Shown here: piece by piece, positions 745 through 62,919 of the stretch
How the letters are laid out: every line of letters begins with the position of its first letter
Numbering within the stretch: the stretch's first letter is position 1
Source: Nereocystis luetkeana
Taxonomy: Eukaryota > Sar > Phaeophyceae > Laminariales > Laminariaceae
Length of the DNA stretch: 64,000 bases
Reading direction: 5' to 3'
NCBI GenBank assembly: GCA_031213475.1
Contig: JARUPZ010000021.1
Span: forward strand, 6,300,438 to 6,364,437
The notes under the pieces: model-generated
Seen by the model: the letters and a program-made list of their open reading frames with translations, nothing else
What the model was told of the DNA's origin: nothing
Database searches by the model: none
Made by a program: the position numbers and the translations under genes

Positions 745-1022
745 GGAATTGCCTACCTGGTACACCGGAAATTAAATCAACCTATTGAAGTGGACATCCA
801 TGTGCAAGTCCGCCTCACAAGCGGCTCTTAGCGGGGTGCAGCTCACCCTTCGTGCGACCAGCCCAACAAACTCACGACGCATCGCGCTAGGTTGCAAGCA
901 ATGTCTGATGCCCTCGTCGGCGAAAACACGACGTGCTCCGTCCCGGCATTGTGGGCATGCGAGGGGTCTATCTATAGTCATACGAATACGGGCACGCATG
1001 ATATCGAGTACACCCCCCTCCC
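745..1022 (+). repeat. R1 dispersed repeat, long copy
   Basis: One of at least five long copies of a ~300-bp repeat clustered in the first 4.8 kb. Shared landmarks in order are the CACCGGAAATTAAAT word, GCAAGTCCGCCTCACAAGCG, CAGCTCACCCTTC, GCAAGCAATGTCTG, GTGCTCCGTCCCGGCATTG, GCGAGGGGTCTAT and a terminal GAGTACAC followed by C-rich sequence. I see no protein coding and no clear tRNA A/B boxes. This copy carries TACCTGGTA at 754-762 where the copy at 2,703 has only TA. Related copies lie in both orientations. The family is not one I recognise. Confidence 0.8.
754..762. other. TACCTGGTA micro-insertion in R1
   Basis: The sequence GCC-TACCTGGTA-CACCGG here aligns with GCC-TA-CACCGG at 2,738-2,746 in another R1 copy. 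The difference is 7 bp added at a TA. The flanks match on both sides, so this is an insertion scar and not unrelated DNA. Confidence 0.75.
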
Positions 1023-1245
1023 CTCTTTTGTACCGCCTCCTCCCATGAGTTAATAGCATTCCCATCAACCAACGTCATCACGGAAACCCGCTCGAAACCT
1101 AGATGAAGTAAGCCACTCACTACACTACACACGCCAACCAATCTACCCTCCCTCCCCCCCTCCTGCTCCGCCTGCTCCCGTGAGTCCAAGATATATCCAT
1201 CAACCAACGTCGCGGCAACCAGACCGACCGCACAACCGTCATCGG

Positions 1246-1345
1246 NNNNNNNNNNNNNNNNNNNNNNNNNNNNNNNNNNNNNNNNNNNNNNNNNNNNNNN
1301 NNNNNNNNNNNNNNNNNNNNNNNNNNNNNNNNNNNNNNNNNNNNN
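1246..1345. other. Assembly gap (100 N)
   Basis: Exactly 100 N bases, the conventional size for a scaffold gap of unknown true length. It lies between R1-type repeats and a satellite, where repeats probably broke the assembly. Confidence 0.98.
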
Positions 1346-1605
1346 TGACCAACTACACGCCGCCGACTACTATTTAATACTGCCTGTGGATGTTTATTGG
1401 AAGTCGGCTGGGAACTGTATATACTGTATATATACGGTAGTGGTATTAAAAGTCACACGTGCGGGTTCATTTGCGGACATCTACGTAATGCGTGTTCTTG
1501 TGCCGAATTCGACGCGTTAGTGGCCTCGACGTGGCGTGTGTGTGTTATTTGGTGTTCGTTAGTAAGTCGGCTGCTGTTGCCTTCATTCGCCATCGAACTA
1601 ATGAC

Positions 1606-1955
1606 TTGCCGTCGAGGCCGACCAACTACCTTGAAATATCTCGCCGCCAAGTCCAGTCAACTAACAACTAGCCGTCCAGTCCAGCCAACTATTAATAGTT
1701 CTTAGCCGTCAAGGCCAGCCAACAAAAGCTAGCCGTCAAGTCCAGCCAGCTAGGAACTGGCCGTCAAGTCCAGCCAACTAGCAACTAGCCGTCGAATCCA
1801 GCCAACTAGTAACTGGCCGTCAAACCTAGCCAGCTAGCAACTGGCCGTCAAATCTAGCCAACTAGTAACTACCTGGTAGGCGTCAAGTCCAGCCAACTAG
1901 TAACTAGCCGTCAACTCCAGCCAACTACAGTAGTAGCTGGCCGTCGAGTCCAGCG
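1606..1955 (+). repeat. 29-bp satellite (GCCGTCAAGTCCAGCCAACTAG)
   Basis: About eleven degenerate units of roughly 29 bp, each built around GCCGTCAAGTCCAGCC followed by AACTAG(C/T)AACTA. Two units are interrupted by palindromic words: TATTAATA at 1,690-1,697 and TACCTGGTA at 1,870-1,878. Neighbouring units have a plain TA there, so the array gives internal empty-site controls for these small insertions. Confidence 0.85.
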
Positions 1956-2253
1956 ATTGCATGCCCCACTCAAAAGCCTAATAATTCCAGACGCACGTTT
2001 ACAATAAAACAACACGGACCTGTTTACAATCGCATTTACAAGTCCGACGTTTCGTTTTGAAAGACCACGGAAACACTGCCGAATTAGACATTGACCCGAC
2101 CTCGCCACCTGCTTTGAATCACAACACGAAAAAAGTGTCATGCGAATACATACCTGACACGTTCATGCACGTGCGTACCTGGTATGTATTCATGGCAACG
2201 TAGATATTTTGTTACTAACATTTGCAGCGCCAGCCCAGCGAAACACCCCTGCA

Positions 2254-3010: not shown

Positions 3011-3254
3011 GTCCCTGCCCTCCCTGGCAAAAACAAGAACCCCCAACGCATAGACTGACAGGGTCCAAATACAAGCCCCCTCCCGCCCTCCGTGCAGAAA
3101 CACATCTTAACACAAAACAAGAACAGCAGTGACAAATCCCTACCCCCCCTTCCCCAGAACAGCGACCACAGCCATGCATGACGTGAGGACCCCCCCCCCC
3201 ACCCCCGCCCGCCCGCCCCTCCAAACAGCAACGTGAAAAATACCTCCCCCGCCC
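3011..3254. other. C-rich spacer between R1 copies
   Basis: C-rich DNA with several C runs and no recognisable gene. It separates two plus-strand R1 copies and may hold an eroded copy. Confidence 0.4.
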
Positions 3255-3541
3255 GCCCTCTGGAATTGGCCACACCAGAAATTGAGTCAACTCAATTGAT
3301 GCTGTCATCCAAATGCAAGAAAATCCGCCTCCAAAGCGGTTCTTAGCAGGATGCAGCTCACCCTTCATGCGACTCACCCAACACTTCAAGGCGCTTCGCG
3401 CTTGGTGCAAGCAAGCGATGTCTCCCTGGTCGTTGAAAACTCGGCATGCTCCGTCCCGGCATTGTAGGGATGCGAGGGTCTATGATCACACGACTACGGC
3501 TATGCATGATAATGAGTGCCCCCCCCCTGCCCCCCCCCGAA
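3255..3541 (+). repeat. R1 dispersed repeat, long copy
   Basis: R1 copy from CTCTGGAATTGGCCACACC to AATGAGTGC followed by interrupted C runs. The internal landmarks are all present and in order. Its first part diverges where the TA insertion site lies in other copies. Confidence 0.85.
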
Positions 3542-5076: not shown

Positions 5077-5078
5077 GG

Positions 5079-5999: not shown

Positions 6000-6940
6000 A
6001 TTCACTTCAAACGATTATTATATTCAGGGACTAGTCCCTAAATACAACAACCGTTTTTATACTAATACTCAATACAAACGTCGATCACTAATAGCGACAG
6101 AGCGGTAGTTCTGGGAAAATCGTGCGCTGAAAAACGATCGCGGAAGCCTTAATTGGTTTGTTTGTGCCGTTTTGGGGACCAGCTTTTTTTGTTCCAATTT
6201 TTTCATCCTCGGGCGGACTGGGGGGGGAGAAACATGTAAGTCGTGTCGAGCCCAGGATCGCACTCCGAACATATTTTATTCCTCCTGCGTGACAGCATCC
6301 GAATATGTATCCGTCGAGAAATATGACATTTCCGTACCGTTCTGTCGCTGACTTGAACAGTCTACATACGCGTATCCAGCCCAGGATGTTCCTTCCTCAT
6401 GCATGACAACATTTGTATCTGTCCGAAAAAACATCAGCAACCTTCCACCGATGCTTCCAATACTAGTAATGGTACCTGGAAATAAAGTCAAGTATTTCCG
6501 AAAGAAAATAGTTTCAGGCGCTACGTGTACTGCAGTATTTGGGCTTTCATGCACTGCAGGATACTGCGAGTACACACATACTCGCAGTATTCCGAGATCG
6601 TGTACCGCAGATATTACCATACTCGAAGCATTTCGGAGTTCCATACTGTGGAATACTGCTGTACTTCCAAGTGTGTCACGGTTCTGTACTGCGGGTACTG
6701 CCCTCCGCGTAAGAGGGTTTATAGTCGGCAAGTTTTGCAGAGGCGTTTTTTTTTCGGGGGAACATACTACTACAGAAGTGGTCAGAAAACAAACGTACGT
6801 ACCTGGTAGTGTGTAAAAGAAGGGGGGGTGGCAGCATGCCTTCTTGAGGTCCATCCACCGCGGGCTCTGATCACCATTTTTGCTCTTCATTTTCTTTCCC
6901 CCCCCCTTTGCTACGTTTGCCCTTCTTTTCTCTCTCCCTC
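6000..6940. other. Unrecognised DNA with no supported gene
   Basis: Opposing open frames overlap here on both strands (longest 223 codons, minus strand, 6,276-6,947), but none resembles a protein I know and the strand cannot be chosen. The region holds a strong hairpin at 6,561-6,590 and one TACCTGGTA word at 6,800-6,808. Confidence 0.35.
6561..6590. repeat. Perfect 12-bp hairpin
   Basis: Arms ATACTGCGAGTA and TACTCGCAGTAT are exact reverse complements around the loop CACACA. The second arm recurs alone at 13,504-13,515. Confidence 0.85.
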
Positions 6941-12034: not shown

Positions 12035-12459
12035 AACCCCTCGGTCCTGGCTTTCTCGGTGGCTTCCTTCCCTTGCCCCTGTCTCTTCGCCGGGCGACTA
12101 CACGCGCCTTCTCGGCGTATCGCGCAGTTCTTGGTACCAGATCGTTGCATATCCCGGTGATTTTGCTTCGTTGTTTTTTTTTAAAGTCAAATTTTGATAG
12201 CTCGGCACATCTTCTCTTTTTCCCCTACTACCACTACTACGTATTGTTCTAAAAGGTACCAGGTACCTGGTACACGGGTTGCTCGTGTACTCAGGATGCG
12301 AGCGATTGAAGGGTTCATATTTATTGCGGATGATTTTTTACTGGTTCAAACTGACAGTCCCGTTTTCGACCACGAACTCGAAGAATATTTTGCTGCGTTG
12401 AGGAGACACGGAGCTCTATCTTCAGTTTGCGCGAAGCCTTCGCTATCGATTCAATCTTG
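12035..12459 (+). other. Flank of the 374-bp array
   Basis: Starts with CCTCGGTCCTGGCTTTCTCG and ends before a related block. The words CCTTCCCTTGCCCCTGTC and CTTCGCCGG recur at 12,750-12,790. It carries the chain TACCAGGTACCTGGTA at 12,257-12,272. Confidence 0.5.
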
Positions 12460-13272: not shown

Positions 13273-14138
13273 ACGTTTTTCACTTTGAGAAAATAATCAT
13301 ATCCAGTCCAGATGCGAGGTCTTTATTTACTATTAATAGTAAATGGGAGATACGGACCCGCTCAAAAGATACGATCCTTCGTTCCAGGAATTATATATGA
13401 TGTTCGGCTGGGTACGATTCCCTGTTGAAAAACGCGCCTAGTTGTTTCGGCGAGCACTACTGGAGGTAATCAAGGGTTGGAGACTGCTTGCTCAGACTGC
13501 AAGTACTCGCAGTATGTCGGAGTTTTGTGCTGCTGTACCTATACTGCTGCGTGTGCTACACGTAATACTATATCCAACATTAATATTTCGGTATTCGTGG
13601 TATGAGAATACTGCACATGTCGTACTTTGCGGTTGCTCTGTATTGCCGATCGATATCAGGTACCAGGTATCAGTTATCAGGTGTATGATACTGCTCATAC
13701 CCGCAGTATCTCGATCACTGCCTGTTCTAAGGATTTAGTGCGATAATGCGCATACAGTACGCGTCCTGTCCTCCCAGTAATTTGGGCGTATACTGCAAGT
13801 TGTTGTCTTCTGCGATGACGTACGTACAGCTGCTGCCGTTGTGCTGCTGCTGGTCTTGGGGCTGGGTCTGCACAGCAGCAGCTGCAGCAACCGACCGCAG
13901 CAGCAGCGATGCCTGCTACTACTCCTGCTGCTGTTGCTGCCATTTTGCATGCTGTGCTGCTGCTGCTATCGCTTTCATGTGCGGGAGAGACCCTCTCTTC
14001 TGCACAAGCGTCGTTGGAAGTAGGTACAGCTCGCCGTAGAGATAGGGGTGTGATATCGGCGTGGGTATTGGGTACTTGGCAACTGGGCAGAAAAAGGGCA
14101 GCAATACGACTATCGTAAACACATCATCAAAGTAATCT
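13273..14138. other. Unrecognised DNA with CTG/CAG-rich stretch
   Basis: Between 13,830 and 13,980 the DNA is rich in CTG and CAG and translates to Cys/Leu or Ala/Ser runs. I see no domain. Palindromic words lie at 13,331-13,338 and 13,661-13,669. Confidence 0.35.
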
Positions 14139-14586: not shown

Positions 14587-14701
14587 TATTAATATTACGG
14601 GGGGCCATAGTTAACAGGACCAAATATTGTTAGTAAAAATGGTTAAATATATAGGTTTTTATGTACACCATAGATCCTGTTAACTAGGGTCCCCCGTAAT
14701 A
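14587..14701 (+). mobile_element. MITE A inserted at a TATTAATA word
   Basis: The element begins TTACGGGGGG at 14,595 and ends CCCCCGTAA at 14,699, flanked by TA on both sides. The left TA is the last TA of a TATTAATA word (14,587-14,594), so the MITE occupies a site that already carried the proposed excision scar. Its orientation is reversed relative to the copy at 8,726. Confidence 0.85.
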
Positions 14702-15234: not shown

Positions 15235-15541
15235 TTACGGGGGACCATATCAACGCCTTTAGAACCGCAGTCCCGTTTTGGGGACAAACCACTCAAATTC
15301 TAAGCAATTTGTCCCCAAAACGGGACTGCGGTCCTAGAAGGGTTAAATAGGACCTACGGTAAACAAAACACCCCTATATATTTAACCTGTTTTTACTATT
15401 ACGGGGGACCATAGTTAATAGGACCTATGGTTTACATTAAAACCTATATATTTCACCGTTTCTACCTACAATATTTGGTCCTATTAACTATGGTCCCCCG
15501 TAATAACAATATTTGGTCCTATTTACTATGCCCCCCCGTAT
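15235..15541 (+). mobile_element. MITE A interrupted twice (by a B and by another A)
   Basis: The outer A starts TTACGGGGGACCATAT after TA. A MITE B (15,254-15,342) sits at the TTAA site near its left end, followed by TTAA at 15,343-15,346. A second, perfect MITE A (15,399-15,503) sits at the internal TA of the outer A and is flanked by TA on both sides (15,397-15,398 and 15,504-15,505). The inner A is 105 bp with 27-bp perfect inverted ends. The outer A then finishes ACAATATTTGGTCC..CCCCCCCGTA. Confidence 0.85.
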
Positions 15542-17152: not shown

Positions 17153-17225
17153 TACCAGGTACCTGGTAATGTGTACAGACGAAAGTACAAAGTCACAGAT
17201 GGCAAAAGTACACACATACCAGGTA
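17153..17225. other. Three TACCWGGTA words within 73 bp
   Basis: TACCAGGTACCTGGTA at 17,153-17,168 (two words sharing TA) and TACCAGGTA at 17,217-17,225. No empty allele is available here. Confidence 0.8.
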
Positions 17226-17830: not shown

Positions 17831-18186
17831 CACAGCAGAGAGCGGGTGTCCAAAAGTCGCGGTCTTAGGGCGGCACGCCACCCTGCACACGCCGCCAGCC
17901 ATTGACGAAAACAGACAAGAGGGTCGATTAAAGACGTACCAGGTACCAGGTTCCTGGTATTCCACGAAGCTCGGGTGATGTAAGTGCTCGCACGAGGCAT
18001 CACCCCTGGGCGGAAATGTAAGGACCGTTGGATATTCATATTTACCCATGAACGAACCTTATATTTCCGGCCAGAGCGGGCACGAGAGAGGCTCTTTCCG
18101 AGACATTTTTTTTTTGCCTCGTGAAGCGATATTTCTGTCTGACGGAGTTCTTCAACTGAGGAATTACCCAATACCATGGTAAGGCA

Positions 18187-18213: not shown

Positions 18214-18425
18214 GAAGGCGTGCCATGTTGTTGCACAATGTTTTCCCGTCAGCACCTATATATAGGTCATTGGATGATTCGCGGGGTTACGCATATACGC
18301 GCGCGTACCCGGTACATGTTTTCTGAAAACTCAGTTATGGCCGGGTTTGGAGCTCAAGTGAAAGAGCCCCAGAATTTTCTGGCGCTGCCCCTGTCGTGTA
18401 CCTGGTATAGTGTAACACGGAAGAT

Positions 18426-19519: not shown

Positions 19520-20720
19520 TACACGCGGAACTTCTGTAAGTCAAGTGTGTCCGTGGCGAAATACCTGGGGCACGGGTATGCCCATTGAAAAAAAAAACCC
19601 GGTGCGAGTATGGGTACAGTACGGGTACAGGTAAAACTTTCGCATACCTTTTCAGGGTTTTCCTGTTAGACTTCCATACCGTCCTCGGAAGTTCTGTCTG
19701 TTCTTTCAGATCTTCGTACCCGTACCTGGCATTCCTGTAAGCTCTGAGGTTGTGCTCTGCAGTGTACATACCCGAGGTATTTTTTCCTGGGTGCTACCCG
19801 TACCGGAGCTTCTGCAAGTGCTGCAAAGCTCGTCAGAGAGCTCGTCAGAATCCGAGTCCGAGTCAACGAGACTCAGCCGTTGACCACGTAGCGAGTCCGA
19901 GTCCTTTTGAGGAATACATACAATACCGAGTGCCCAGGGTACCATAAGCCGAAATGACTGTGAGAGTCCTCGCGAGTCCCCAGGGTACCCGAAGCTGAAA
20001 TGACTTACTATTAATTATAGCCCTCGCGAGCCAACCGGTCAAACAAAAGGAACTGCTTTTGTTGTGCATTTTGTTGTTCCCCGTTGGAAAAAAACTGCAC
20101 AAGGTTGTCAAGAGTATCAGTATCAGTCATACCGACTCATCGGTCATTGAATCGAGAGTCCGAGGCACTTTAAAGTACTGCGTCCCCAGGGTGCCGGGAG
20201 CTGAAATGACGGAGTCGTCGCGAGTCGCCAGGGTGGTGGAAGGCTGGAATGGCGGGAGTCCTCGCGAGTCCGTATGATACCGAGGCAGAAATTACTGAGT
20301 GCTCGCGAGTTCCTAGGGCACCGAAAGCTGACATAACTTGTGCTCGGAGGTACTGGTACTCCGACAACCTTTCGAGTTATGTATGACATTCAACGACTTT
20401 CATATCCGTGCAGTACCCGAACTTCTGCAACTTCTGAATATACGCCCGTGGCACAATACCTGGTACGGGTGTGCCGATTAAAAAATACCCGGGTGGGGGT
20501 ACGGGCACGGGTACCAATTCGTGGAATAATCTTACCTTAAACGGGTACCAATTCGTGTAAGAATCTCACCTTAAAACTGAAAAACACTCCTCGTTAAGAT
20601 TGCGACCCTTAGCCGGAACTTCTGTGACTCGGTAAGACTGCCATACCCGTACATGGAACTTCTGTGCCTTCCGTAAGAGCAAGACTTCCGTACCCTTACC
20701 CGGAGTCGACGAACGCACAC
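19520..20720 (+). repeat. Field of degenerate ~50-60-bp repeats
   Basis: Two word sets recur: CGGAACTTCTGTAAG-like (near 19,527, 19,725, 19,805, 20,415, 20,605, 20,650) and CTCGCGAGTCCCCAGGGTACC plus AAGC(T/C)GAAATGAC (near 19,935, 19,970, 20,185, 20,215, 20,260, 20,300). They look like two old interspersed minisatellites. No gene seen. Confidence 0.65.
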
Positions 20721-20954
20721 CTGACAGCTGGCAGCTGACGTGTTTCATAAAATTGTACTGGTACGTGAGAACAGGTGTGTTTGCGAACTTGAGTACCAGG
20801 TATCAACTATATCAACTATTGAATACTTCGTACCAGGTATGTGATCAATCGAACTCACTGGCGTATTTCAAAATTACTATTAATACCACCCTACTCAACT
20901 GCTATATATCAAATGGCATAAAAATGATATAAAACCCTTCGTACTCATAGGGTA

Positions 20955-21352
20955 TGTACAGCTTTTTTTTCCAGCTCGATCTTTTCAAGTATTTGCCACA
21001 TCGCTTGCGGGGGGGGGGGCACGACAGTTTGTTTCTTCTATTTTTTTTTTTTCCCTTTTTGTTTCTTTTTTTTTCTCTTTCGATTTGTCTCCTTCGTTTT
21101 CGTTTTCCCTTGTTTCGTTTCGTTTCTCTATTTCATAGAATGTGTATGACGACATGACTGCTGTGCTCACTGCATACGTGGCAACGTAGTATCTCTGATG
21201 TGGCGCAGCTTTGTGGACCATATACCTTGTGTCTCTTCTATTAATAGGATTGAAGAATCGGCACGGACACTGGCTGTGCGCTGGTCAATCCGGCACGGAC
21301 ACTGGATGTGCTGGATGTCGACGGGTAGAAAGAACGAAGAACACACACACCT
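20955..21352 (+). mobile_element. LINE 3' tail, 5'-truncated
   Basis: Matches the last ~400 bp of the LINE: CCAGCTCG.TCTTTTCAAG, a G run with GCACGACAG, pyrimidine-rich DNA, ATTTCATAGAATGTGTATG, ACGTGGCAACGTAGTATC, then CGGCACGGACACTGG..GTCGACGGGTAGAAAGAACG and (AC)n. It has TATTAATA at 21,239-21,246 and a local duplication of the CCGGCACGGACACTGG segment. 5' truncation at a fixed 3' end is typical of LINE insertion. Confidence 0.85.
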
Positions 21353-21392: not shown

Positions 21393-21487
21393 TACCTGGT
21401 ACCAGGTACCAGGTACAGTAGTGTACCAGATACATCAATGACATGGTTAAACCAGTACGAAAATATGTATTAATACTCGTATTAATA
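21393..21487. other. Chain of TACCWGGTA and TATTAATA words
   Basis: Three TACCWGGTA words share TAs between 21,393 and 21,415. Two TATTAATA words follow at 21,468-21,475 and 21,480-21,487. This is the densest cluster in the window. Confidence 0.85.
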
Positions 21488-21502: not shown

Positions 21503-22956
21503 ACTCGAAGCAGCCGAACGGTTCATGGTGAGGTGGCACGAGGCTGAGGCTGAGAAGAGTAGGCAGCGCCGCGCATCCGCCGTGGATGGTGCCCAAGGGA
21601 ATGGGGGGGGGGGGGGGGGACAGGAGGAGTGGCAGAAAACCCGACCAAGGGTACGCGGAGGGGGGGGGGATAGGAGGAGTAGAAGGGAAACTGCGGTAGA
21701 CGAAAGTAGGAAGGAGATGGCAGACAGGGTAGCAAGGCACCAGGCCGACTAGGAAGTAGAACATGACCATACTACTAGTGCCACCAACTGGTGCAGCAGC
21801 TGCTTCGAACGTGGTCTTCTCTTGTCTTCTCTTCTTTTTGCTTTTTTTTTTTTTTTTTGCGCTGATTCCCCGTGATTTTTATTTCATTTCTCCTCTTCCT
21901 TTTTTTATTGATAAGCTGTATCGTCCCCGGTGGATTGGTAGGTGGTCCGCGTGCCTATCAAGATCAATCTCGTGGGTTCAAGTCTCACCGAGTGCATGCT
22001 CGTGGCTTTTTCTTGCAAAAAAGAAATTGATTAGCGGAAAGCGCGAGAGGGTGAGTTAGCTACATTCGATGAAAATCGACGAGCTGTGGGAATGCTGAAC
22101 CCTATGCGCGACAAAAAACTAAAGGCACGTACCGGGGGGTAGAAGGGATGACACCTACCTGTGACCACGGCTAGTCCAGAAGCTCGTTAAGGGTAACACC
22201 TCCCACGAGTAATAAGGCTGGAAAGTAAAAGTGACGTTGAAAAAAAATAAAATAAAAATTGAAGGAGTCGTGTGGCGTGGTTGGATGACGCACCTGCTCT
22301 GCTCGTTTCGTATTGTCTGACGCCAAGGGGCTGGGCATAGTTGACGAACGCAGGGCGGAGACGGCAGTCTGGGTAGCAAGGTACCAGGCTGATTAGTAGG
22401 GAGAACCTGGCTATACTACTCGTACCACAAACTGCCTCCACCTGGAGGGTGTTGGGCTTTGGTCTGCCTGTTAATTTCCCTTTCTTATTTTTTCCTTGGT
22501 TGACTTAGGTTACTCTCCTTATTGTTACGGTGTTTTTATTTTTTTTATTTTTTCCTTTTTTTTTCCAGCTCGTTCTTTTTCAAGTGTTGGCCACCTCGCC
22601 TGCAGGGGGGGGGGGCACGACAGAATGTTTCTTCTAGTGTTTCCATCTATTTTATTTCTCCTTCTCTTTCGATTTGTCTTCTTTGTTTTGGTTTTCTCTT
22701 CGATTGCTTCGTTTCGTTTCTCTATTTCATAGAATGTGTATGTCGTACCTGTCGTATCTATCATATGGCATTGGATTGTCCACTGCTGTGCTTACTGTAC
22801 TGCATACGTGGCAACGTAGTATCTCTGTGGCGTAGCTTTGTGGTCACAATATTTGTATCTCTTCTATTAATAGGATTGAAGAATCGGCACGGACACTGGT
22901 TGTGCTGGATGTCGACGGATAGAAAGAACGGTTTAATGTGAAGAACACACACACAT
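21503..22956 (+). mobile_element. LINE 3' region with a SINE-2 inserted
   Basis: From GAAGCAGCCGAACGGTTCATGG (end of the LINE coding region) through its 3' untranslated part to the (AC)n tail at ~22,956. It is split by SINE-2 at 21,923-22,258, after which the LINE resumes TGAAGGAGTCGTGTGGCG. It carries TATTAATA at 22,865-22,872 in CTTC-TA-GGATTG, where the copy near 61,523 has plain TA. Confidence 0.85.
21923..22258 (+). mobile_element. SINE-2, tRNA-derived
   Basis: About 335 bp. It begins GTCCCCGGTGGATTGG with an A-box-like stretch (GGATTGGTAGGTGG) and a B box (GGGTTCAAGTCTCACC). The body includes CATGCTCGTGGCTTTTTC, TTAGCGGAAAGCGCGAGAG and AAAGGCACGTACCGGGG, and the tail is A-rich (AAAAAAAATAAAATAAAA). 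Compared with the copy at 34,040 it has ACCT duplicated (CACCTACCTGTG against CACCTGTG). Confidence 0.85.
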
Positions 22957-24375: not shown

Positions 24376-24892
24376 GTGTGTGTGTGTGTGTGTGTTCTTC
24401 ACATTAAACCGTTCTTTCTACCCGTCGACATCCAGCACAACCAGTGTCCGTGCCGATTCTTCCATCCTAGAAGAGATACAAGTTCTGTGGTCACAAAGCT
24501 ACGCCACAGAGATACTACGTTGCCACGTGTGCAGTGTGAACTGCAGTGGGCAATGCAAAGCCATGTCATCATACTAGATACGACAGGCACGACATACGCA
24601 ATCTATGAAATAGTGAAACGAAAAGAAACAATCAAAGAGAAAACAAAACAAGGTAGACAAGTCGAAAAAGAAAAAGAAGAAAAATGAAAGCAAAATCTAA
24701 GAGAAACAATCTGTCGTGCCCCCCCCCCCGCAGGCGAGGTGGCCTACACTTGAAAAAGAACGAGCTGGAAAAAAGAAGAAATAACAAAAGACACCACTGC
24801 TTGTGAACAGAGTAAGACAAAGAACCAAGGAGAAAGTAACAAGGAAAAATAACAAAGGGGAAATAACAGGCAGACCAAAGCCCAAAGCAAGT
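24376..24892 (-). mobile_element. LINE 3' tail, minus strand
   Basis: Reverse complement of the LINE 3' end: (TG)n, TTCTTCACATTAAACCG, TTCTTTCTACCCGTCGACATCC and so on to GGCAGACCAAAGCCCAAAGC. It has the plain CCTAGAAGAG site (no TATTAATA), making it an empty allele for 25,579-25,586. Confidence 0.85.
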
Positions 24893-25349
24893 ACCGCTGC
24901 TTTGTTGCCGCAGCAACAACAAGCAGCACAGCAGAGCAACAACTTCAGCAGCAGTCCACAACGCACACGGCGCCGTCAACGATGTTGAAGCTGCACCCTG
25001 CCAGCCCTCCGCCGCAAATAGCCGTATGCCTTTGCCGGCCATAACGAGGGCTTCGCGTTGACACGGACTCGCCGCATGGGCCGTGCGCTTGGTTAGACAG
25101 ATTGGTGGTGAGAGGCAACCCATGTATCATGCCTCACATCACTCCTTCTGGCTGCTGCTGTAGGCTGTGCCATGAGAACCTGAACGACGAATATGATTTC
25201 TTCCCAAATACCAGGTACGATGTTTTCATTCGTCCGGGGCGATCCGGGTTGTCCTGCTGCAGCTGGCCAATAACTTGACGATCCTAATCGAAACCCCAAA
25301 AGCCAAACTCAACTCGATTTTTTTGTGAAGATATGGGCCATATGTACCG
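24893..25349. other. Spacer without supported gene
   Basis: No gene recognised. One TACCAGGTA word lies at 25,209-25,217. Confidence 0.3.
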
Positions 25350-25497: not shown

Positions 25498-25625
25498 TGT
25501 GTGTGTTCTTCACATTAAATCTTTCTTTCTACCCGTCGACATCCAGCACAACCAGTGTCCGTGCCGATTCTCCAATCCTATTAATAGAAGAGATACAAGT
25601 TCTGTGGTCACGAAGCTACGCCACA
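25498..25625 (-). mobile_element. 3' end of LINE copy 2, separated from its body
   Basis: (TG)n then TTCTTCACATTAAATC..GAAGCTACGCCACA is the reverse complement of the LINE tail. It stops where plus-strand LINE sequence begins. The next tail bases (GAGATACTACG) reappear at ~29,560, so copy 1 was inserted into copy 2. TATTAATA is present at 25,579-25,586. Confidence 0.8.
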
Positions 25626-25649
25626 TTGTACCAAGGACGCCGAACTGAA

Positions 25650-26440
25650 ACGTATTTTCTGGGAGAGAAGCTGGAGTACTTGGTGGAAAAAATACCGACG
25701 AAAGAGTGTCTGTTTGTACTGATGGATGCCAACGCGCGAACTGGACAGAGGAAGGAAGGGTGCGGTGATTATGAAAGCAGAGTGCTGGGAGCGTATGTGG
25801 ACGTGATGTTCGTAACGATAATGGCAGACGGCTCCTGTCGTTCGCCACCAATTGCAAGTTAGCTCTCACCAACACGTTTTTCAGCACGCGCAAGGGTGGG
25901 ATATCGCATACTCACAACGGCACCACAGCCCGAATGACCGTAAGCGGATCGACTATATCCTAACCCGTCAAGTCCATCGGCCTAGAGTACAAGATGCGAA
26001 AGTCGTCCCACAGCCTCCTGCCGCCCAGCTAAGTAAGGCTGACTCAGACCACAACATCGTGTATATCAAAGTCCGACTCGGTGGTCATTTTGCGCCCAAC
26101 AGACAAATACGTAGACCGACAAAACGCCGAGAGTTCGACAGGCAGCTTTTTATGTCCGATGGAAAGTGTCGTGAACGAGTAGTCGCCAGGGTCATCTCCA
26201 CTCTCAACCAGCTTACTATCCAGCCCCGTAATACGTGTGGTATGGTTGAGTTTTTCACTACGGCTGTTATTGATGCGGTCGAAAAGGAGGTACCACCCCC
26301 TGCACGTCGCCACCGCAGACATGGATGGTGTGAGTCTGCCGAAACCTTGGCCGCATTTATGTACCAGCATGGACAGCGAGGGGTGATGCACGACAATTCT
26401 TGCGTGCCCACCCCCGGGACAGAACCGCGTGGAAGACCCT
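25650..26440 (+). pseudogene. LINE copy 1 endonuclease remnant
   Basis: The C-terminal part of the APE-type nuclease that nicks target DNA. Visible motifs are LFVLMDANARTGQR (Asp/Asn), NDRKRIDYILTRQV and KADSDHNIVYIKV (the catalytic Asp-His pair). The N-terminal motifs are lost by truncation. TAAG is tandemly duplicated in CAGCTAAGTAAGGC relative to copy 3. Confidence 0.85.
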
Positions 26441-26527
26441 GAGATCGGCGTGTGCGAACCTGCAGAAGGTGATTGCCGCAGGACTGCATGCACTTCGAAG
26501 CGTACCTTGCCGAAACCGAACGACTCC

Positions 26528-26542
26528 TATTAATACCAGGTA
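26528..26542. other. Double scar TATTAATACCAGGTA in LINE copy 1
   Basis: Copy 3 reads CTTC-TA-GCGAACAACG at 58,593-58,608. Here the same place reads CTCC-TATTAATACCAGGTA-GCGAACAACG. The TA has gained 13 bp (6 for TTAATA and 7 for CCAGGTA). Copy 2 has the same at 32,441-32,455. Confidence 0.85.
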
Positions 26543-26662
26543 GCGAACAACGACCAGAGAGGCTTTTACAAGCACTGAGTACGGTAGGATTGAAAGGGAC
26601 CAAAGCGAGGAGCGAACAGTTAGTTCATTAGGGACGAGGGTGGCACGCTCTTACGGGATAAG

Positions 26663-28304: not shown

Positions 28305-28639
28305 CATAGATGCATAGTCGAAGACCTTAGGGAGTTCCGAGCCACCGAAGGGTCAACGGAAGTTGCCCCCTTGGTATTTGGAGTTGACACGGCGTTGTGG
28401 TCCACTGCAGCCAAAAAGGCGGGGAAGTGGTGCCGGGGGATCCTTGAAGCAGCCGAACGGTTCATGGTGAGGTGGCACGAGGCTGAGGCTGAGATGAGTA
28501 GGCAGCGCCGCGCATCCGCCGTGGATGGTGTTCAAGGGAACGGGGGTGGAGGGGGCAACAGGAGAAGTGGCAGAAAACCCGACCAAGGGAATGCGGAGAG
28601 GGGGGGGGAACAGGAGGGGTAGAAGGGAAACGGCGGTAG

Positions 28640-29556
28640 ACGAAAGTAGGGAGGAGATGGCAGACAGGGTAGCAAGGCACCAGGCCGACTAGGAAGCGAA
28701 CATGACCATACTACTAGTGCTACCAACTGGTGCAGCAGCTGGTTCGAACGTGGTCTTCCGTTGTCTTCTCTTTTTCTTTTTTCTTTTTTCTTTCTTGCGC
28801 TGACTCTCCGTGATTTTCATTTTATTTTTCTCTCTTCCTTTTCAGATTGATAAGCCGTGCTGAAGGAGCCGTGTGGCGTGGTTGGATGATGAACCTGCTC
28901 TGCTTGTTTCGTATTGTCTGACGCCAAGGGGCTGGGCATAGTTGACGAACGCAGGGCGGAGACGGCAGTCTGGGTAGCAAGGTACCAGGCGGATTAGTAG
29001 GGAGAACCCTGCTATACTACTCGTACCACAAACTGCTGCCGCCACCTGGAAGGTGCTTTGGGCTTTGGGCTTCGGTCTGCCTGTTATTTCCCCTTTGTTA
29101 TTTTTTTTCCTTGGTTCTTTGTCTTACTCTGTTTACAAGCAGTGCTTGTTTTTTTTTTTTTTTTTTTTCCAGCTCGTTTTTTTTCAAGTGTTGGCCACCT
29201 CGCCTGCGGGGGGGGGCACGACAGATTGGTTTCTCCTAGTTTTTGCTTTGCTTTCATTTTTTTTCTTCTTGTTCTCTTTCGATTTGTCTACTTTGTGTTT
29301 GTTTTCTCTTTGATTGTTTCTTTTCGTTTCACTATTTCATAGATTGTGTATGTCGTGCCTGTCGTATCTAGTATGATGGCATGGCTTTGCATTGCCCACT
29401 GCAGTGCTTACTGCATACCAGGTACGTGGCAACGTAGCATCTCTGTGGCGTAGCTTTGTGACCACAGAATTGTATCTCTTATAGGAATGGAGAATCAGCA
29501 CGGACACTGGTTGTGCTGGATGTCGACGGGTAGAAAGAAGAACACACAACACACAC
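28640..29556 (+). other. LINE copy 1 3' untranslated region
   Basis: Pyrimidine-rich stretches, a G run before GCACGACAG, and the conserved terminal ~200 bp. TACCAGGTA at 29,416-29,424 interrupts GCA-TA-CGTGGCAACG, which is plain in the copies at 21,171 and 22,802. Confidence 0.8.
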
Positions 29557-32320: not shown

Positions 32321-32440
32321 CTTATCCCGTAAGAGCGTGCCACCCTCGTCCCTAATGAACTAACTGTTCGCTCCTCGCTTTAGTCCCTTTCAATCCTCCC
32401 GTACTCAGTGCTTGTAAAAGCCTCTCTGGTCGTTGTTCGC

Positions 32441-32455
32441 TACCTGGTATTAATA
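32441..32455. other. Double scar TACCTGGTATTAATA in LINE copy 2
   Basis: Reverse complement of the compound word at 26,528-26,542, at the same position of the element. Both copies inherited it from a common source or exchanged it by gene conversion. Confidence 0.85.
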
Positions 32456-32542
32456 GGAGTCGTTCGGTTTCGGCAAGGTACGCTTTGAAGTACGCATGCA
32501 GTCCTGCGGCAATCACCTTCTGCAGGTTCGCACACGCCGATC

Positions 32543-37313: not shown

Positions 37314-37737
37314 CTGACTCCTCGTGAAAACACTCCTTCCTCGAACTGCGATGGCAAATCTGCTCCCGTCAGAGCAATAGGGGAGTCGGCGGAAGGTAAA
37401 TCTTGTTCAACACTTCGTCTCGTTTACTTGTCAAGTAAATACCAATATATTTCGCGAGTAAACAGTACAATCTTACAAAATACCTGGCATCATTTGGGTT
37501 TGGCGTGTACGCGGAGCCGTGGTATTAGGTACCTGGTATGTTGTTTCCGATTCTGTGGAGTGTTAACGGTTGGAAACGATGCTGTATTTTGTTTGAGGTA
37601 CAACATATGTAGCACTATTTAGGACTACTGCTCACAACGGAGTGATCAATTGGCAGACAAGGGTGAAGCAGAAACTATGTGAAACAAAAGACAAAAAGAG
37701 TAGGTTCAAAAGGAAAATCGGCCTACCTGGAAAACAC
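37314..37737 (-). other. Intron 4 of the DUF7869-type gene
   Basis: A/T-rich, no coding signal. Carries TACCTGGTA at 37,530-37,538. Confidence 0.5.
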
Positions 37738-40159: not shown

Positions 40160-40600
40160 CGATCTTCACATTAAAGCGATATTGCTACCCGTCGACATCC
40201 AGCACACCCAGTTTCCGTGCCGATTCTTCGTCCTATAATAGAGAGATACCAGTTATTATGTGGTCACAAAACAACGACATGGAGATGATACTACACTGCA
40301 ATGCAGTAAGCAGAGCAGACAATGCAATGCCATAATATGCAACAGGCACTACCTACCCTGTGCAATCCAGCAGCGTGAAAGTGAAAAAAGAAACAGAAAA
40401 AGCGAAAAAGAAGAAAAAAATAGAAGACAAATAATGAAAAAAATAGTTCAAGCAAACAGAAACACACAAACAGAAACATTACGTAATATAGACAAAGACA
40501 GAAAGTGCCGTGCTTCTTCCGGAAGGGATGTGACAGACAAGATAAAAATAAAAATGAAAACAGCGTAAACAGAGGAAGACTGGGAACCAAGGAAAAAAAT
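40160..40600 (-). mobile_element. LINE 3' tail, old diverged copy, minus strand
   Basis: ATCTTCACATTAAAGCG, CTACCCGTCGACATCCAGC, GTGCCGATTCTTCGTCC and so on match the tail at 24,396, with many substitutions. It is the most diverged LINE tail in the window and so probably the oldest. Confidence 0.75.
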
Positions 40601-44225: not shown

Positions 44226-45480
44226 ACGGTAAACCTGTTCGTAATTTGTACCAGGTAGGTAACATACCAGTGCTGCCAACCATGACGAAGACTCCTCGAA
44301 ACCAACGCCTGCCGAAGACTCAATTCACCATGACGATACACGTCAATCAGCCATCTTCATCACAACAGCAACAGAAAAAGAAGAAGAAACAGCCAATGAA
44401 AACTACTTTTACAGTCTGAATCCCAAAGGAAATGGCAAAACCAGCAACGAAAACCAAGATCAAATCAGCTCTTATAACTACCCACAACGGGGATCGAGAA
44501 CGGAAGTCGGTCACCTTTAGTCCAGATATTGAGACGTGGTATTAATAGAATATATCTATAGACGAGGAGATAAAGATAGTCGATATTGGGGATTGGTTAT
44601 TTTGGAAAACATAGCTGGTTCTGACTAAGTAGTGTAAATTGTAGGAAGTAGACTAAGGAATACCTGGTATGAGACAGTTAGGACATAGCTATAGGGACGG
44701 GGGGAGATCATCATCACTGATTACGAGTAAGTTCCTCCGTGATGAATCACTATAGGAATGGGCCTGCGTTCATCATACAGGCTGCAAATGAGTTCAGGTC
44801 TGTTGGTTGATCTACACTTGATGCATACTATGAGACGATCACAAGACAAGGACTTTTTGCAGGCAATTTGGTTTTGGCCTTTGTGATAGTGATTTTATAT
44901 CTTCGCAGATTCTACAGGTGCTGCAAGGTCGTTCTCACAGATGTTTCAGGGGTAGTGATATCGCAGATTGGTTGTGGTTTTCAATTATGTATGGAGAGTG
45001 TGAGCATTGCTATAGTTTCTCTTTGTCATGATGAGAACTTATCGGAATTGGAAACATAGTTTAGTGATATTATCATAGCGGAACGGGAATAGGGGAAGCT
45101 CGATAACAGTACGTTAGAATCTTGAGGATTGTAGAGGATGCATTGATATTAATCACTGGAAACAAGATAATATTTCAGATTTCAGCGGAGCTATACACGT
45201 CATGGGGGTTACTGCATACACCGGAGCTACATACTCCTGGGGAGCTACTATACAAATACTTTCAAGGCTGCGTAGGAATTACTACTAATAGACATGCAAG
45301 CATATATGTAGCCCCTGAAGCCTTTGTCGATTGTTACTTTGTAAATGGGTGTTTATACCTAGATATATGTTTACCAAATGATAGATTCTGCTGTTCCAGA
45401 TTCGTTGATATAATGTGTAAAGGATTTACAACAATGACGGGCATAGCTAATACCTACAATCATATTGATATGTCTTGATT
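44226..45480 (+). other. A/T-rich segment with unrecognised frames
   Basis: Base composition shifts sharply to A/T here, unlike the GC-richer gag and pol regions. One frame (44,868-45,059) has a membrane-like hydrophobic stretch (VLAFVIVILYLRRFY). A later one (45,122-45,478) has a mixed, protein-like composition. I cannot assign a family. As it lies in a possibly virus-derived context I describe it only as a fossil of unknown origin. Confidence 0.35.
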
Positions 45481-53389: not shown

Positions 53390-54340
53390 ACGACTTGCAG
53401 TTCCCCAATCTCTCGTTCCAGGGATTATGGCGCTGGCACACAGCACCTATGGGCATCCAGGGACGGTGAGAACTACAGCCTTGGTTAGTCGTCGGTATTA
53501 CTGGCCCACCCTCATCAGGGACGTGAGAGACTATGTCCTCTCGTGTGGGTGCAGGCGTCGCGAGCGATCAGCGAGTCAACGGGTTGCCATGCTACCGGCG
53601 AGGTTTCTGCGACCCGGGTAGGTACTCGAAGTCGACATCCAGGACATGGGGGTGAAGTCGGACGCAGGCAACAAAGTTCTACTGGTGGGAGTCGACAAAA
53701 CTAGCAAGTTATTGTTCGCCTTCCCGCTCTCCACGAAAGACGCACTCGGAGTAGCGAGGAAACTACTCGAAGTGATGCTTACTTTTTAGCTACCGCTGTA
53801 CCAGGTATATTCGCAGTGATCCGGGATCCGAGTTCACGGCAGAGGTGATGCAACACTTATGCAAGTGGCTGAACGTGACCATCGCCTATGGGCCTGCCGA
53901 CCATCCACGTGCACAGGGGACGGTGGAGAGACTGGGGGGGTGGCTGCACGAAGCACTAGGAGAACTGTGCAAGACCTGGCCTCGCAGATGGGATGAGTAC
54001 GTACAGCCGGCACTGTGGATCCATCGTACCATGCCGGACCTACGCTTGCCGGGGAAGCCAACTCCCTTCCGTCTTTTCTTCGGTCGTGATGCGCGCACGC
54101 AACTTGATGCTACACACCCCGAGATCGATGGTGGTGATTTCAGGGGCGGGATGCACAGTTACGTGGCCGACAAACGTCAAGCGTACAACGAGGTACGAGA
54201 TGTACGGGAGGCTCTATTGAAAAGACATGATGACAGGAAGAAAACTCGTGAGAGTCGGAATGCTGAAATCGGTCGGACCTCGGTAGGAACCCGTGTTGTT
54301 GTCGGAGACAAGGTGCTGGTGAAGGAGGCGGAGTCTGTGA
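53390..54340 (+). other. Integrase region of the LTR element
   Basis: A zinc-binding H-H-C-C segment (LAHSTYGHPGTVRTTALVSR, YYWPTLIRDVRDYVLSCGC) is followed by core sequence (LNVTIAYGPADHPRAQGTVE, RLGGWLHEALGELCKTWPRR) and a basic C-terminal part with VGDKVLVKE. It lies downstream of RT/RNase H as in Ty3/gypsy. Confidence 0.8.
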
Positions 54341-58979: not shown

Positions 58980-60511
58980 TCAATGTTTGGTTAACAGGAG
59001 AAGTCCCTCAGCAATGGAAAGATGCGATCATCAAGGTCCTTCACAAAAAGAAGGATCGAACTGACTGCAACAACTACAGAGGGATTTCGCTTGTTGCCCA
59101 CGCAGGCAAAGTGTTGTTGAAAATCGTCGCGTCCCGCCTCAGCAACTACTGCGAGAGCGAGGAACTACTCCCCGAGGAACAGTGCGGCTTCCGCCCCGCA
59201 CGATCAACCATTGATATGTTGTTCGTCGTGCGCCGGCTGCAAGAGCTCGGACGACAGAGGAAAATCCCCTTATACGTGTGCTTCATCGATCTGCAGAAAG
59301 CGTACGACTCTGTCGACCGAGAGCTGTTATGGAAGGTACTCACACGCTTTGGCGTACCAACCAAGATGCTGAGAATTATCCGTAATTTCCACGATGGCAT
59401 GCGGGCTCGCGTGCGTACTGATGACGGCGAGCTTTCGGAATGGTTTGATGTCACGCAGGGGCTGCGGCAAGGCTGTGTACTATCACCGTTACTGTTCAAC
59501 GTGTTCTTCGCTGCTGTGTTACACGTCGTACTAGTACGCTTCAGCCAAGACGAAGCCATTGTAAGGGATTTGGTCCAACTCAGTGAAGCTGGAATAGTTC
59601 GAACAGGGAAGGAGGAGCCATTGGCGTGCGTGCGAAGGTCTGTATGGGGCATGTTGTACGCCGATGATGCAGGAATTGTCTCGAAGTCGGCTGAAGGGCT
59701 CGCAAAAATGATGACAGTCATCGTGACTGTCTTCGAAGCAGCAGGCCTCACGGTGTCGGAAAAGAAGACTGAGACAATGGTTCTACAAACACCAGACCGG
59801 ACAACCCTCGCACCACCGCTCGTCATCGAAGCGGCAGGTCAGAGGTATAAGCACACGACCCAGTTATTACGCCTAGGCGGCGTTATCCACGAAAACGCTG
59901 CGCTCTCGCTCGGAATCGACCGACGGATCCGCCTCATGCGAGCATGCCTCAAACGGTTCGGCCCAGAGTTGTATGATAGGACGACCGCCCCCCTTAGCCT
60001 TAAAGTCCGAATGCTGAAGACCGAGGTGATTGAGACCCTGCTGTACGGGTGTGTGACGTGGACCCTCAGAGCGGAGCACTTTGCCAAGCTCCGAACGGCT
60101 CACCACCAAGTCCTGTTGCGAGTCATTGGCTTCCAGCGCCGACTTCGTACTGACCATGCCACCCTCTCGTACGCGAAGGCCCTCAAGATGACACGTTGCG
60201 AGAGCATCGAAACGACCATTCGTAAACGGCGGCTCTTCTTTGCGGGGGGCGTGGCACGGCAAAGCAAGGAGCGATTACCCAGTCGGGTAATGTTCGGGAC
60301 GATAACTGGTGGGGAGAACCCGAGACCAGGCGGACAGTGTAAGACTTGGCATAGATGCATAGTCGAAGACCTTAGGGAGTTCCGAGCCACCGAAGGGGCA
60401 ACGGAAGTTGCCCCCTTGGTGTTTGGAGTTGAAACCGCGTTGGGTCCACTGCAGCCAAAAAGGCGGGGAAGTGGTACCGGGGGATCCTTGAAGCAGCCGA
60501 ACGGTTCATGA
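58889..60511 (+). CDS. LINE copy 3 reverse transcriptase
   Basis: A 540-codon frame whose first ~30 codons are out of frame with the protein. From ~58,980 it reads [112 protein letters not shown] and a long thumb ([35 protein letters not shown]). It would copy RNA at a nicked target. No RNase H follows. This is the best-preserved RT of the family here. Confidence 0.92.
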
Positions 60512-61612
60512 TGAGGTGGCACGAGGCTGAGGCTGAGATGAGTAGGCAGCGCCGTGCATCCGCCGTGGATGGTGCCCAAGGGAACGGGGGGGGAGGGGGC
60601 AACAGGAGAAGTGGCAGGAAGCCCGACCAAGGGAATGCGGAGAGGGGGGGGAACAGGAGGGGTAGAAGGGAAACTGCGGTAGACGAAAGTAGGAAGGAGA
60701 TGGCAGACAGGGTAGCAAGGCACCAAGTCGACTAGGAAGTAGAACATGACCATACTACTAGTGCTACCAACTGGTGCAGCAGCTGGTTCGAACGTGGTCT
60801 TCCCTTGTCTTCTCTTTTTCTTTTTTCTTTTTCCTTTCTTGCGCTGACTCTCCGTGATTTTCATTTTATTTTTTTCTCTTCCTTTTCTGATTGATAAGCC
60901 GTACTGAAGGAGCCGTGTGGCGTGGTTGGGTGACGAACCTGCTCTGCTCGTTTCGTATTGTCTGACGCCAAGGGGTTGGGCATAGTTGACGAACGCAGGG
61001 CGGAGACGGCAGTCTGGGTAGCAAGGTACCAGGCGGGTTAGCAGGGAGAACCTGGCTATGCTACTCGTACCACAAACTGCTGCCGCCACCTGGAAGGTGC
61101 TTTGGGCTTTGGTCTGCCTGTTATTTCCCCTTTGTTATTTTTCCTTGTTACTTTTTTCCTTGGTTCTTTGTCTTACTCTGTTTACAAGCAGTGGTGTTTT
61201 TTCTTATTATTTTTCTTCCTTTTTTTCCAGCTCGTTCTTTTTCAAGTGTTGGCCACCTCGCCTGCGGGGGGGGGGCACGACAGATTGTTTCTCCTAGATT
61301 TTGCTTTCATTTTTTTCTTTTTCTCTTTCGATTTGTCCCGTTTGTTTTTGTTTTCTCTTTGATTGTTTCTTTTCGTTTCACTATTTCATAGATTGCGTAT
61401 GTCGTGCCTGTCGTATCTAGTATGATGACATGGCTTTGCATTGCCCACTGCAGTGCATACTGCACACGTGGCAACGTAGTATCTCTGTGGCGTAGCTTTG
61501 TCACCACAGAACTTGTATCTCTTCTAGGATTGGAGAATCGGCACGGACACTGGTTGTGCTGGATGTCGACGGGTAGAAAGAACGGTTAAATGTGAAGAAC
61601 ACACACACACAT
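60512..61612 (+). other. LINE copy 3 3' untranslated region
   Basis: Gly/Arg-rich coding end, then pyrimidine-rich DNA, a G run before GCACGACAG and the conserved tail. The CTTC-TA-GGATTGG site near 61,523 is the empty allele for 21,239 and 22,865. Confidence 0.85.
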
Positions 61613-62919
61613 GACTCTCGTTGTGTACCCTCAGTTGTTTCAACGTAGCTTTCATCTACCCCCGAATAGTAACCTGCCGTACACTGCACAGCTGAACGGC
61701 TTCCCAACACCATTACTTTGCTCCGATAGTAGGGGACACTCATCCCGTATGTGTGTAGGGGCGTGTGGGGCCAAAGTTAAACATCTCCACGCTTGTGAAA
61801 GCAAGAGGAACGATGGACCCAAGGATCTAGAGAGCTTTTTCCGTGCGACCTTCAGTCCCATGAATGGTTATATTGATAGTGGTATGAATACTGTATATAC
61901 TGTGGGTACATCCTCCACGTATGATATGTGGCCTTCGACTAAAAATCGTCATTTCTACCCGGTTTCATCACCGTAGTATGCCCCGTATGAATACCAGATA
62001 CCTGGTACTCGTGTACATACGGTGTGTGTGGTACATCCTGATATGTCGCTTTTCAACGCGTTAACATGACTCGAAAAGATGGGAAGAGAGATGTACGAAA
62101 TGGCCCCTAGGGATTTTGCCATACGGCCTACCTGGTACCAGGTACAGTTTTACGGGAGTGTGTAGTATTATATATAGCCTATAAACGCCCTTTGTTGATG
62201 TTGTCAAAAGCATACATACTGCGAGCCACCCCCCCTGTATGCTTAACCGTGTATCAAGAGCTCACCCTGTTCGGGGAAGAAGAAAAAAAACTGCAGGTAC
62301 AGAGTACAGCAGTAGTAGTAGCAGTATGGTTCACTGTCTTTTTTCCACATTACATGTACTATCGTTAATATTCATATTCTTAGTCGTGTACGTACTGTAA
62401 TGCAAGTCGTCGTATAATATATACCATCTTCTCATCTTTTTGAGCATCGTATGAAACTGCGTAGTGTATAGACTACTGATGGTATTGTAGACGGGGATAT
62501 CGCTTTCTGTGTAATGTGATTAGTAAGTTGAGGCGCCTTTGCTCCAGGCAGCTATTACTCAGTGCTCGGGGCATGGTAGGTTATCGGTTCCTACGTACAA
62601 CTTAGAACTTAAAACCATCTACGGGAGGCGCTCCTCCCGCAACGATATTTAAAAGTACTCCCTGTTTCGATACCAGCAGCGAGGTATACTTCAACAACAG
62701 CAGTTACATGTGACATGTGACCACGAAAATACTGCTTTGCTGTCGCTCAGGTTGGGCTGATTATTAGAGTCGTACACATACGTATTGCCATGGTAGTCTA
62801 AATGCATACAGCCGACCCCCCCCATTGTTTTGCTCGAGGAATACCGCACAGCAAGAAAAATACCGGCCGCACAAAAAAAACAGACGAGATGTGCGGGGCC
62901 GAAAACAAAAAAATCGAGA
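61613..62919. other. Spacer without supported gene
   Basis: No gene recognised. TACCWGGTA words lie at 61,999-62,007 and as a chain at 62,129-62,144. Confidence 0.35.

Follow-up and report, generated by a model that had tools for sequence, protein, structure and literature searches.

TACCWGGTA, a nine-letter word abundant in the genome of the brown alga Nereocystis luetkeana, as the likely excision footprint of a TA-inserting transposon

Introduction

The closest described counterparts of TACCWGGTA (W, A or T), a word that recurs in a 64,000-nt stretch of the brown alga Nereocystis luetkeana (GenBank assembly GCA_031213475.1, contig JARUPZ010000021.1, positions 6,300,438 to 6,364,437; hereafter, the window), are the footprints of TA-targeting cut-and-paste transposons. 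The statements cited here are those found in the available excerpts of each source. Sleeping Beauty and mariner, of the Tc1/mariner group, produce three-base overhangs (PMC7827188), and Tc1/mariner footprints measure 2-4 bp (PMC7913693). In ISY100, the second strand is cut two bases inside the element, two to three bases being stated for the family (PMC2170065), while Passer inserts at TA within a palindromic preference, AAGTACTT, and leaves footprints of 0-4 bp (PMC9976928). The target of ZB, ATATATAT, is described as very similar to that of Sleeping Beauty (PMC7913693). A comparison of two rice genomes for DNA transposon excision footprints found them varied and complex, a perfect footprint being possibly rare (PMC4423477). 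The brown alga Ectocarpus holds 17 Mariner-Tc1 families with almost 12,000 copies, most of them non-autonomous (PMC12477816). A palindromic preference around TA is typical of TA transposases.

Here we report that TACCWGGTA was probably left behind by the excision of a cut-and-paste transposon whose insertion takes place at TA and duplicates it. Sleeping Beauty and mariner also duplicate their TA target, but there CAG overhangs pair around a central mismatch and leave three bases, CWG, between the TAs, whereas the word studied here has five, CCWGG, with two extra C-G/G-C pairs flanking the mismatch. The first-pass annotation of the window had drawn the comparison with Sleeping Beauty, aptly so, as this genome also has an excess of TACWGTA and contains CAG-ended elements. 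A two-base stagger and cut-and-paste movement of the ISY100 kind would suit a second family in this genome, a miniature inverted-repeat transposable element (MITE) with ends TTAC..GTAA and the footprint TATTAATA, whereas five bases of stagger would be required for the TACCWGGTA class. Features in common with the pogo/Tigger/Passer group are the DDE_1 and HTH_Tnp_Tc5 domains of a relic (on stretch L049) and the palindromic TA preference of Passer; the group differs in the 0-4 bp footprints of Passer, and the DDE_1 elements with CAGT ends in this genome (L038, L059) are without CCAGG. Rice offers a catalogue of DNA transposon footprints, whereas here one nearly uniform word occurs about 182,000 times. 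Ectocarpus is a brown alga with Mariner-Tc1 elements, but 'footprint' is absent from the main text as available and no scar class is described there (PMC12477816). Among the papers listed by the literature searches and judged by title and the opening part of the abstract, none containing TACCAGGTA dealt with transposons, none containing TACCTGGTA dealt with footprints, and none described brown-algal excision footprints of this kind.

Sequence data

The window lies within a 465-Mb assembly of 1,987 contigs, which all genome-wide counts cover. Density was estimated from L009-L028 only, twenty stretches of 10 kb each that were taken from set positions on 19 contigs; the stretches L001-L004, L007, L008, L038-L050, L058 and L059 are non-random, having been picked by site or by transposase. 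Sample counts leave out L005 and L006, which overlap L004, and the viral contigs L029-L037. The flank-profile comparison and later counts also leave out L039, L041 and L043, which are contained in L048-L050, and the count of variant words (341 kb) leaves out L051-L057 as well.

Results

The window contains 29 copies of TACCWGGTA, of which 15 have A and 14 have T at the centre, against an order-3 Markov expectation of 0.59, and no other TA-N5-TA word occurred more than five times. The first-pass annotation had counted about 28 copies with about 0.5 expected, so that the excess stands with slightly different figures. As TACCAGGTA is the reverse complement of TACCTGGTA, the two forms are one word read in either orientation; the description of an odd palindrome with a variable centre holds as regards the near-palindrome, while the centre is inseparable from orientation. 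The genome-wide enrichment that had been proposed as a check is present: the genome has 182,395 sites, while the control word, reversed but not complemented, has 1,744. The density sample contained 81 sites, and 19 of its 20 stretches had one or more. Forms with one mismatch numbered 171 against 71 expected (those with centre C or G being the same sites counted twice), alongside 136 intact words, which suggests a mean divergence of the scars of about 6-8% per site, or lower if part of the one-mismatch forms arose otherwise. The occurrences in the window, together with the elements and shorter insertions used for comparison, are as follows.

754..762, minus strand: scar TACCTGGTA; copy 2741 is empty (TA), another at 3185-3414 has CA
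1870..1878, minus strand: scar in satellite; empty in the neighbouring stretch
2176..2184, minus strand: scar (word count)
6800..6808, minus strand: scar (word count)
12257..12272: double scar TACCAGGTACCTGGTA (word count)
13661..13669, plus strand: scar (word count)
17153..17168: double scar TACCAGGTACCTGGTA (word count)
17217..17225, plus strand: scar (word count)
17937..17959: three-unit array with one decayed TA (TACCAGGTACCAGGTTCCTGGTA)
18399..18407, minus strand: scar (word count)
20457..20465, minus strand: scar (word count)
20794..20802, plus strand: scar (word count)
20831..20839, plus strand: scar (word count)
21393..21415: triple scar TACCTGGTACCAGGTACCAGGTA (word count)
25209..25217, plus strand: scar (word count)
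26534..26542, plus strand: scar in a long interspersed nuclear element (LINE), stacked on TATTAATA at 26528-26535; both absent at 58597
29416..29424, plus strand: scar in LINE-like tail; several copies without it
32441..32449, minus strand: the stacked scar of 26534 again, in the LINE copy of opposite orientation (TATTAATA at 32448-32455)
37530..37538, minus strand: scar (word count)
44249..44257, plus strand: scar (word count)
44661..44669, minus strand: scar (word count)
53799..53807, plus strand: scar in a long terminal repeat (LTR) retrotransposon region (integrase-like stretch by eye)
61999..62007, minus strand: scar (word count)
62129..62144: double scar TACCTGGTACCAGGTA (word count)
15397..15505: MITE TA-TTACGGGGGACC...GGTCCCCCGTAA-TA, comparison element
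14593..14701: second full copy of the same MITE family
22793..22799, minus strand: TACTGTA, 5-bp insertion of CWG type
1926..1932, plus strand: TACAGTA, 5-bp insertion of CWG type

Repeat copies with and without the word differ by 7 bp at a TA. The scar at 754 shows a clean 7-bp difference from the copy at 2741, in which the site is TA; a second copy of this repeat (3185-3414) also lacks the 7 bp and has CA. At 1870, the neighbouring satellite stretch 1640-1858 is shorter by a clean 7 bp and again has TA, while a second satellite alignment (1590-1774) gave no clear filled or empty outcome. Among copies of the repeat at 29416 that lack the 7 bp, the one at 21067-21279 has TA and those at 61315-61582, 24412-24678 and 29561-29732 have CA; the alignment with 40182-40333 gave no clear outcome. 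These are the loci at which the first-pass annotation had seen the insertion, with the empty allele always TA: the comparisons of 754 and 1870 are as it described, and TA was found for copies of all three repeats, but some copies have CA. In its comparison of 29416 with 22804, the alignment is untidy because the 22804 copy holds a different, 5-bp insertion (the TACTGTA word), but GCATACGTGG is present in that copy. Its reading of 26534 against 58597 as a single 7-bp insertion does not stand. The difference there is 13 bp, TATTAA plus TACCAGG, most simply read from the alignment as two short insertions stacked on one TA. The scars at 26534 and 32441 would most simply be one event, copied with the LINE, which is 98% identical there. 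The two LINE copies (about 25500-33400; 98% identical where compared) lie head to head, forming a large inverted repeat that shares one stacked scar.

To extend these comparisons, 107 scar arrays with usable flanks from a 282-kb sample were reduced to TA, and counterparts of the collapsed sequence were sought among repeats. An empty counterpart was found for 9/107 arrays and a filled one for 3/107, against 12/902 and 144/902 for control TA-N5-TA words. Empty-only to filled-only outcomes were thus 8:2 for scars and 7:139 for controls (Fisher p=4e-8), and any empty counterpart was commoner for scars (p=1e-4). TACCWGGTA is accordingly an insertion relative to an allele of exactly TA, with the TA duplicated.

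The flanks of the scars share a target preference, profiled in 250 flanks of 125 scar arrays. A second TA lies at -7/-6 in 28.0% of scar flanks, compared with 7.5% when TAs in general are considered (p=3e-22); T is avoided at -1 beside the TA (15/250 flanks, p=6e-9) and A is favoured at -6 (127/250). This palindromic preference is present on both sides of the site. The five bases between scar and flanking TA are varied rather than CCWGG, so the flanking TAs are not decayed older scars.

Scars also lie next to one another more often than the control. Whereas 115 of the 125 arrays were single, two scars in a row were found at 15,917 places genome-wide, against 2 for the control, a tandem share of 15,917/182,395 (8.7%). 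Scar TAs are favoured targets, probably because every scar brings in another TA at a distance of seven bases, the spacing that the preference calls for. A weight matrix built from the flanks rated scar TAs at 7.3 times the average TA and predicted that 10.6% of new hits would fall on scar TAs, against 1.45% for blind choice; as the matrix was trained on the same sites, its agreement with the tandem share is not independent proof. Direct pairs made up 9,539 of the 15,917 (4,800 + 4,739; 60%), leaving 6,378 inverted pairs by subtraction. In a hand count of 59 forward pairs listed, AT pairs seemed commoner than TA pairs (14 to 5). Separately, TACCAGGTACCTGGTATTAAAT is identical on many contigs, accounting for 31 of 100 places among the matches listed to the end pattern of the relic on L049, and is probably a pair of scars that has spread with a repeat family.

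Several related words resemble lesser versions of the same product. In the 341-kb sample, TACCAGTA (31 against 14.8 expected), TACCGGTA (17 against 5.0), TACCAGGGTA (10 against 0.8) and TACCATGGTA (3 against 0.5) were in excess, with the CCWGG flank signature raised to 0.47-0.67 of flanks (background 0.31 for all TAs; 0.73 for CCWGG itself), these signatures resting on small numbers. Variants that partly share the target preference of CCWGG include CCAG, CCGG and CCAGGG, whereas TACCTA showed neither excess nor flank signature in this sample. Graded variants are what is expected from imperfect joining of excision ends.

A second class of scar has a visible parent. The 109-bp MITE, with ends TA-TTACGGGGGACC...GGTCCCCCGTAA-TA (in short form, TA-TTACGGGGG..CCCCCGTAA-TA), is common: in 200 kb, 22 ends agree with it at no fewer than 25 of the 29 positions, and apart from these clear ends, matches reach 20. 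If two bases were left at each MITE end, the footprint would be TATTAATA. Several repeats carry this word as an insertion at TA. In the collapse test it had an empty counterpart in 13/69 and a filled one in 6/69 cases (controls, 48/893 and 129/893), and the whole genome holds 93,112 copies of it, compared with 10,689 of its control word. A TAC/TA junction preference is common to the MITE ends (27 flanks) and to TATTAATA (158 flanks; r=0.79 between the two), while the TACCWGGTA flank profile is unlike that of the MITE (r=-0.35). We infer that the MITE is the source of the TATTAATA class.

Genes that probably belong to this MITE family are IS630/Tc1-like (NF033545), with 24 matches, all below the curated cut-off, and several copies with open frames of 493-515 amino acids; they include C10:3953063, C13:369793, C1354:19940, C2:6045860, C18:2777514, C7:5299419, C30:2038847 and others. 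The assignment is based on one end, a TTACGG end about 385 bases into L062, downstream of one IS630-like copy, which matches the MITE end at 24/29 positions and lies beside TAC/TA, where a nearby MITE remnant is possible.

As for the shorter CWG insertions, TACAGTA over both strands occurred 130 times against 51.6 expected in 341 kb, an excess inflated by the satellite, which holds 5 of the 17 in the window. DDE_1 elements with CAGT ends, which would leave CAG/CTG, are present on L038 and L059. In their flanks, TACWGTA sites are similar to the TATTAATA class (r=0.67), so a link to the CAGT-ended elements lacks support and a third transposase is not singled out. The L059 element (209-2186) has identical 20-bp inverted ends (CAGTACCGGCCCGCTAGTAA), overlaps a DDE_1 match with a 542-amino-acid open frame, sits in the TA of a TACCAGG scar and looks young.

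For the TACCWGGTA class itself, the search for a TA-flanked element with CCAGG/CCTGG ends and a transposase, suggested by the first-pass annotation, yielded one relic and no intact element in the parts searched. The relic, of 6.1 kb (L049, 2563-8692), has the left end TACCAGGTGCCTGTCAATACATACCGGA at 2563 and the inverted right end TACCAGGTTCCTCTCATTAAATACCTGA at 8692; the ends are alike at 23/28 positions, begin TACCAGGT and have TA on both sides. It encloses a gene with DDE_1 and HTH_Tnp_Tc5 domains, a combination that we take to place it in the pogo group, and its left flank, AAAAAACA directly before TA, fits the target preference. Of the 28 DDE_1 (PF03184) matches in the genome, the flanks of 12 were covered (L038-L047, L058 and L059, with L048-L050 as longer stretches of three of these), and L049 was the only stretch among them with CCAGG at both ends around the transposase gene. 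Its relatives in the genome are 30-56% identical. Searches at E 0.001 gave no genome match for DDE_3 (PF13358), and none for Transposase_1 (PF01359), for which the control was silent too, so that its absence is not established.

With up to three mismatches, the L049 end pattern had 159 matches against 10 for the control; among the 100 of these that were listed, only the two ends of L049 had no mismatch, none had one and four had two. A high-copy repeat flanks L049 on the left; its tail differed in seven copies, so that it yielded no empty site. Scans of 317 kb for end pairs (TACC, TACT, TACA, TATT, TAGC and TAGG) returned 317 pairs; among the matches listed, at most 14 per prefix, most were inverted copies of LINEs or other repeats, together with the TTAC MITE and an end pair on L046. 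TACC-ended pairs numbered 38, and the 14 of these 38 among the matches listed were inverted copies of the window LINE or its tail. Recurring continuations of TACCAGG half-sites were only mutated scars and known repeats, with no common element. Abundant scars with no intact element in the parts searched fit long movement without multiplying, extinction, or elements lying in unread parts.

Discussion

TACCWGGTA is best supported as an excision footprint because it is a TA-flanked 7-bp insertion against empty alleles, has a palindromic target preference and graded variants, and is paralleled by a MITE and scar pair; on the same grounds, the view of the first-pass annotation that these are scars of a TA-targeting transposon holds up well. 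We consider it likely that the transposon was of the cut-and-paste kind and duplicated TA. Its ends would read CCAGG...CCTGG, and its transposase would cut the second strand five bases inside each end, so that both flanks would keep a 3' overhang TA-CCAGG. These overhangs could then pair C-G, C-G, A.A, G-C and G-C; the lone A.A mismatch would be resolved to A or T, and the site sealed as TA-CC(A/T)GG-TA with a net gain of 7 bp. The transposase was possibly of the pogo-like DDE_1 family, here represented by one relic. A fuller account is offered more tentatively: about 182,000 near-identical scars would have been left in one genome by a TA transposase whose five-base stagger lies beyond the two to three bases described and whose elements have almost disappeared, with scars, as favoured targets, seeding tandem scars in a record invisible to repeat annotation.

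Several findings weigh against this reading, besides the small numbers of the variants and the circularity of the weight matrix. The five nucleotides of CCWGG exceed the 2-4 bp of Tc1/mariner footprints, and a five-base stagger the published two to three, which would make this a variant. Direct pairs are 60% of tandem scars, where random resolution of the centre predicts 50%, so some pairs may be slippage duplicates. Among the variant words, TACCCGGTA, which is over-represented (15 against 2.4), lacks the signature (0.33) and is possibly a footprint of another family. TAGGACCTA, a repeat word with flanks alike at all positions, has a high signature (0.81), so the flank signature alone proves nothing. 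The remaining points concern L049. Its gene reads GETG in place of the DETG of a relative, and VGG in place of MDG, at positions that we take to be catalytic, and thus seems, from this alignment, to be a pogo-like gene without its catalytic residues. Its right flank does not fit the target preference, unrelated stretches reach 20/28 in the same end comparison, and decayed scars (TACCAGGT + G/T) could imitate the first 8-9 bases of its ends. A query of 501 bases around the left end revealed no second copy of it among the 40 of 1,656 candidates that were scored, most of them a repeat in the flank, and no intact element with CCAGG ends was seen in the parts searched. L049 is therefore a lead to the source rather than proof of it, and the transposon proposed in the first-pass annotation is not firmly identified even where the footprint itself is upheld.

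It is nearly an even question whether the footprint has a source other than L049, such as the IS630/Tc1-like genes (437-599-amino-acid open frames) or an unrecognised family of TA transposase. The 24 IS630-like matches, several of them open at 493-515 amino acids and others lying on C17, C32, C2, C1 and C20, speak for such a source, as does the fact that the L049 ends are no more than suggestive; but the one IS630-like copy partly read, with its TTACGG-type end beside TAC/TA, is tied to the TATTAATA class, and the CCAGG at both ends of L049 sets it apart among the DDE_1 flanks covered. The first-pass annotation had also raised an ultra-short inserted unit, in which a transposase or repair activity adds seven bases at TA directly and no larger element was ever present. 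Consistent with this are the very uniform product and the lack of a CCAGG end pair among the matches listed from a scanned sample that holds more than 100 scar arrays. The graded variants, which partly share the target preference and are what imperfect joining of excision ends would give, and the parent MITE visible for the second scar class make this alternative unlikely.

Spread of the word by replication slippage or short tandem duplication of TACCAGG could explain the surplus of direct pairs, yet most arrays are single, the bases towards a flanking TA are varied and not CCWGG, empty alleles lack the word altogether, and slippage gives no palindromic preference at -7/-6. Isolated single insertions lead us to reject it as the main cause, for which it is very improbable, while a small part of the direct pairs may come from it. 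A protein-binding word, either ancestral or under selection, would suit the near-palindrome, and short binding words can be abundant; against it stand some 182,000 sites and repeat copies that lack the word exactly between the two TAs. The empty alleles reject an ancestral motif, and we give this explanation hardly any credence.

In the cited literature, as far as the available excerpts go, footprints were followed in small numbers or through the comparison of two genomes. If TACCWGGTA is an excision footprint, one nine-letter word records about 182,000 events, and TATTAATA about 82,000 above its control. Departed transposons would then be countable, roughly datable and mappable from a single assembly, and the frequency of DNA transposon jumps that leave no copy behind could be gauged directly. 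A five-base stagger, if real, would extend the described cutting geometry of TA transposases. Frame-shifting 7-bp insertions of scar origin may also occur in genes and repeats.

Additional observations

The scar at 53799-53807 lies near a break in the open reading frame listing of the LTR retrotransposon, and the 7-bp gain may be the cause of this break. Nine IMG/VR loci with the 16-mer had only 2-3 sites each and were not kept as leads. On C20, between 5.75 and 6.27 Mb, TACCAGGTGCCCGTATATACAT is found at nine places, three on one strand and six on the other, mostly about 44 or 54 kb apart; the series probably reflects large segmental duplications.

The EsV_1_7_cys domain is hugely expanded in brown algae. 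In this genome it had 1,710 first-look candidates, and all of the 150 that were scored matched (150/150), against 0/14 control genomes.

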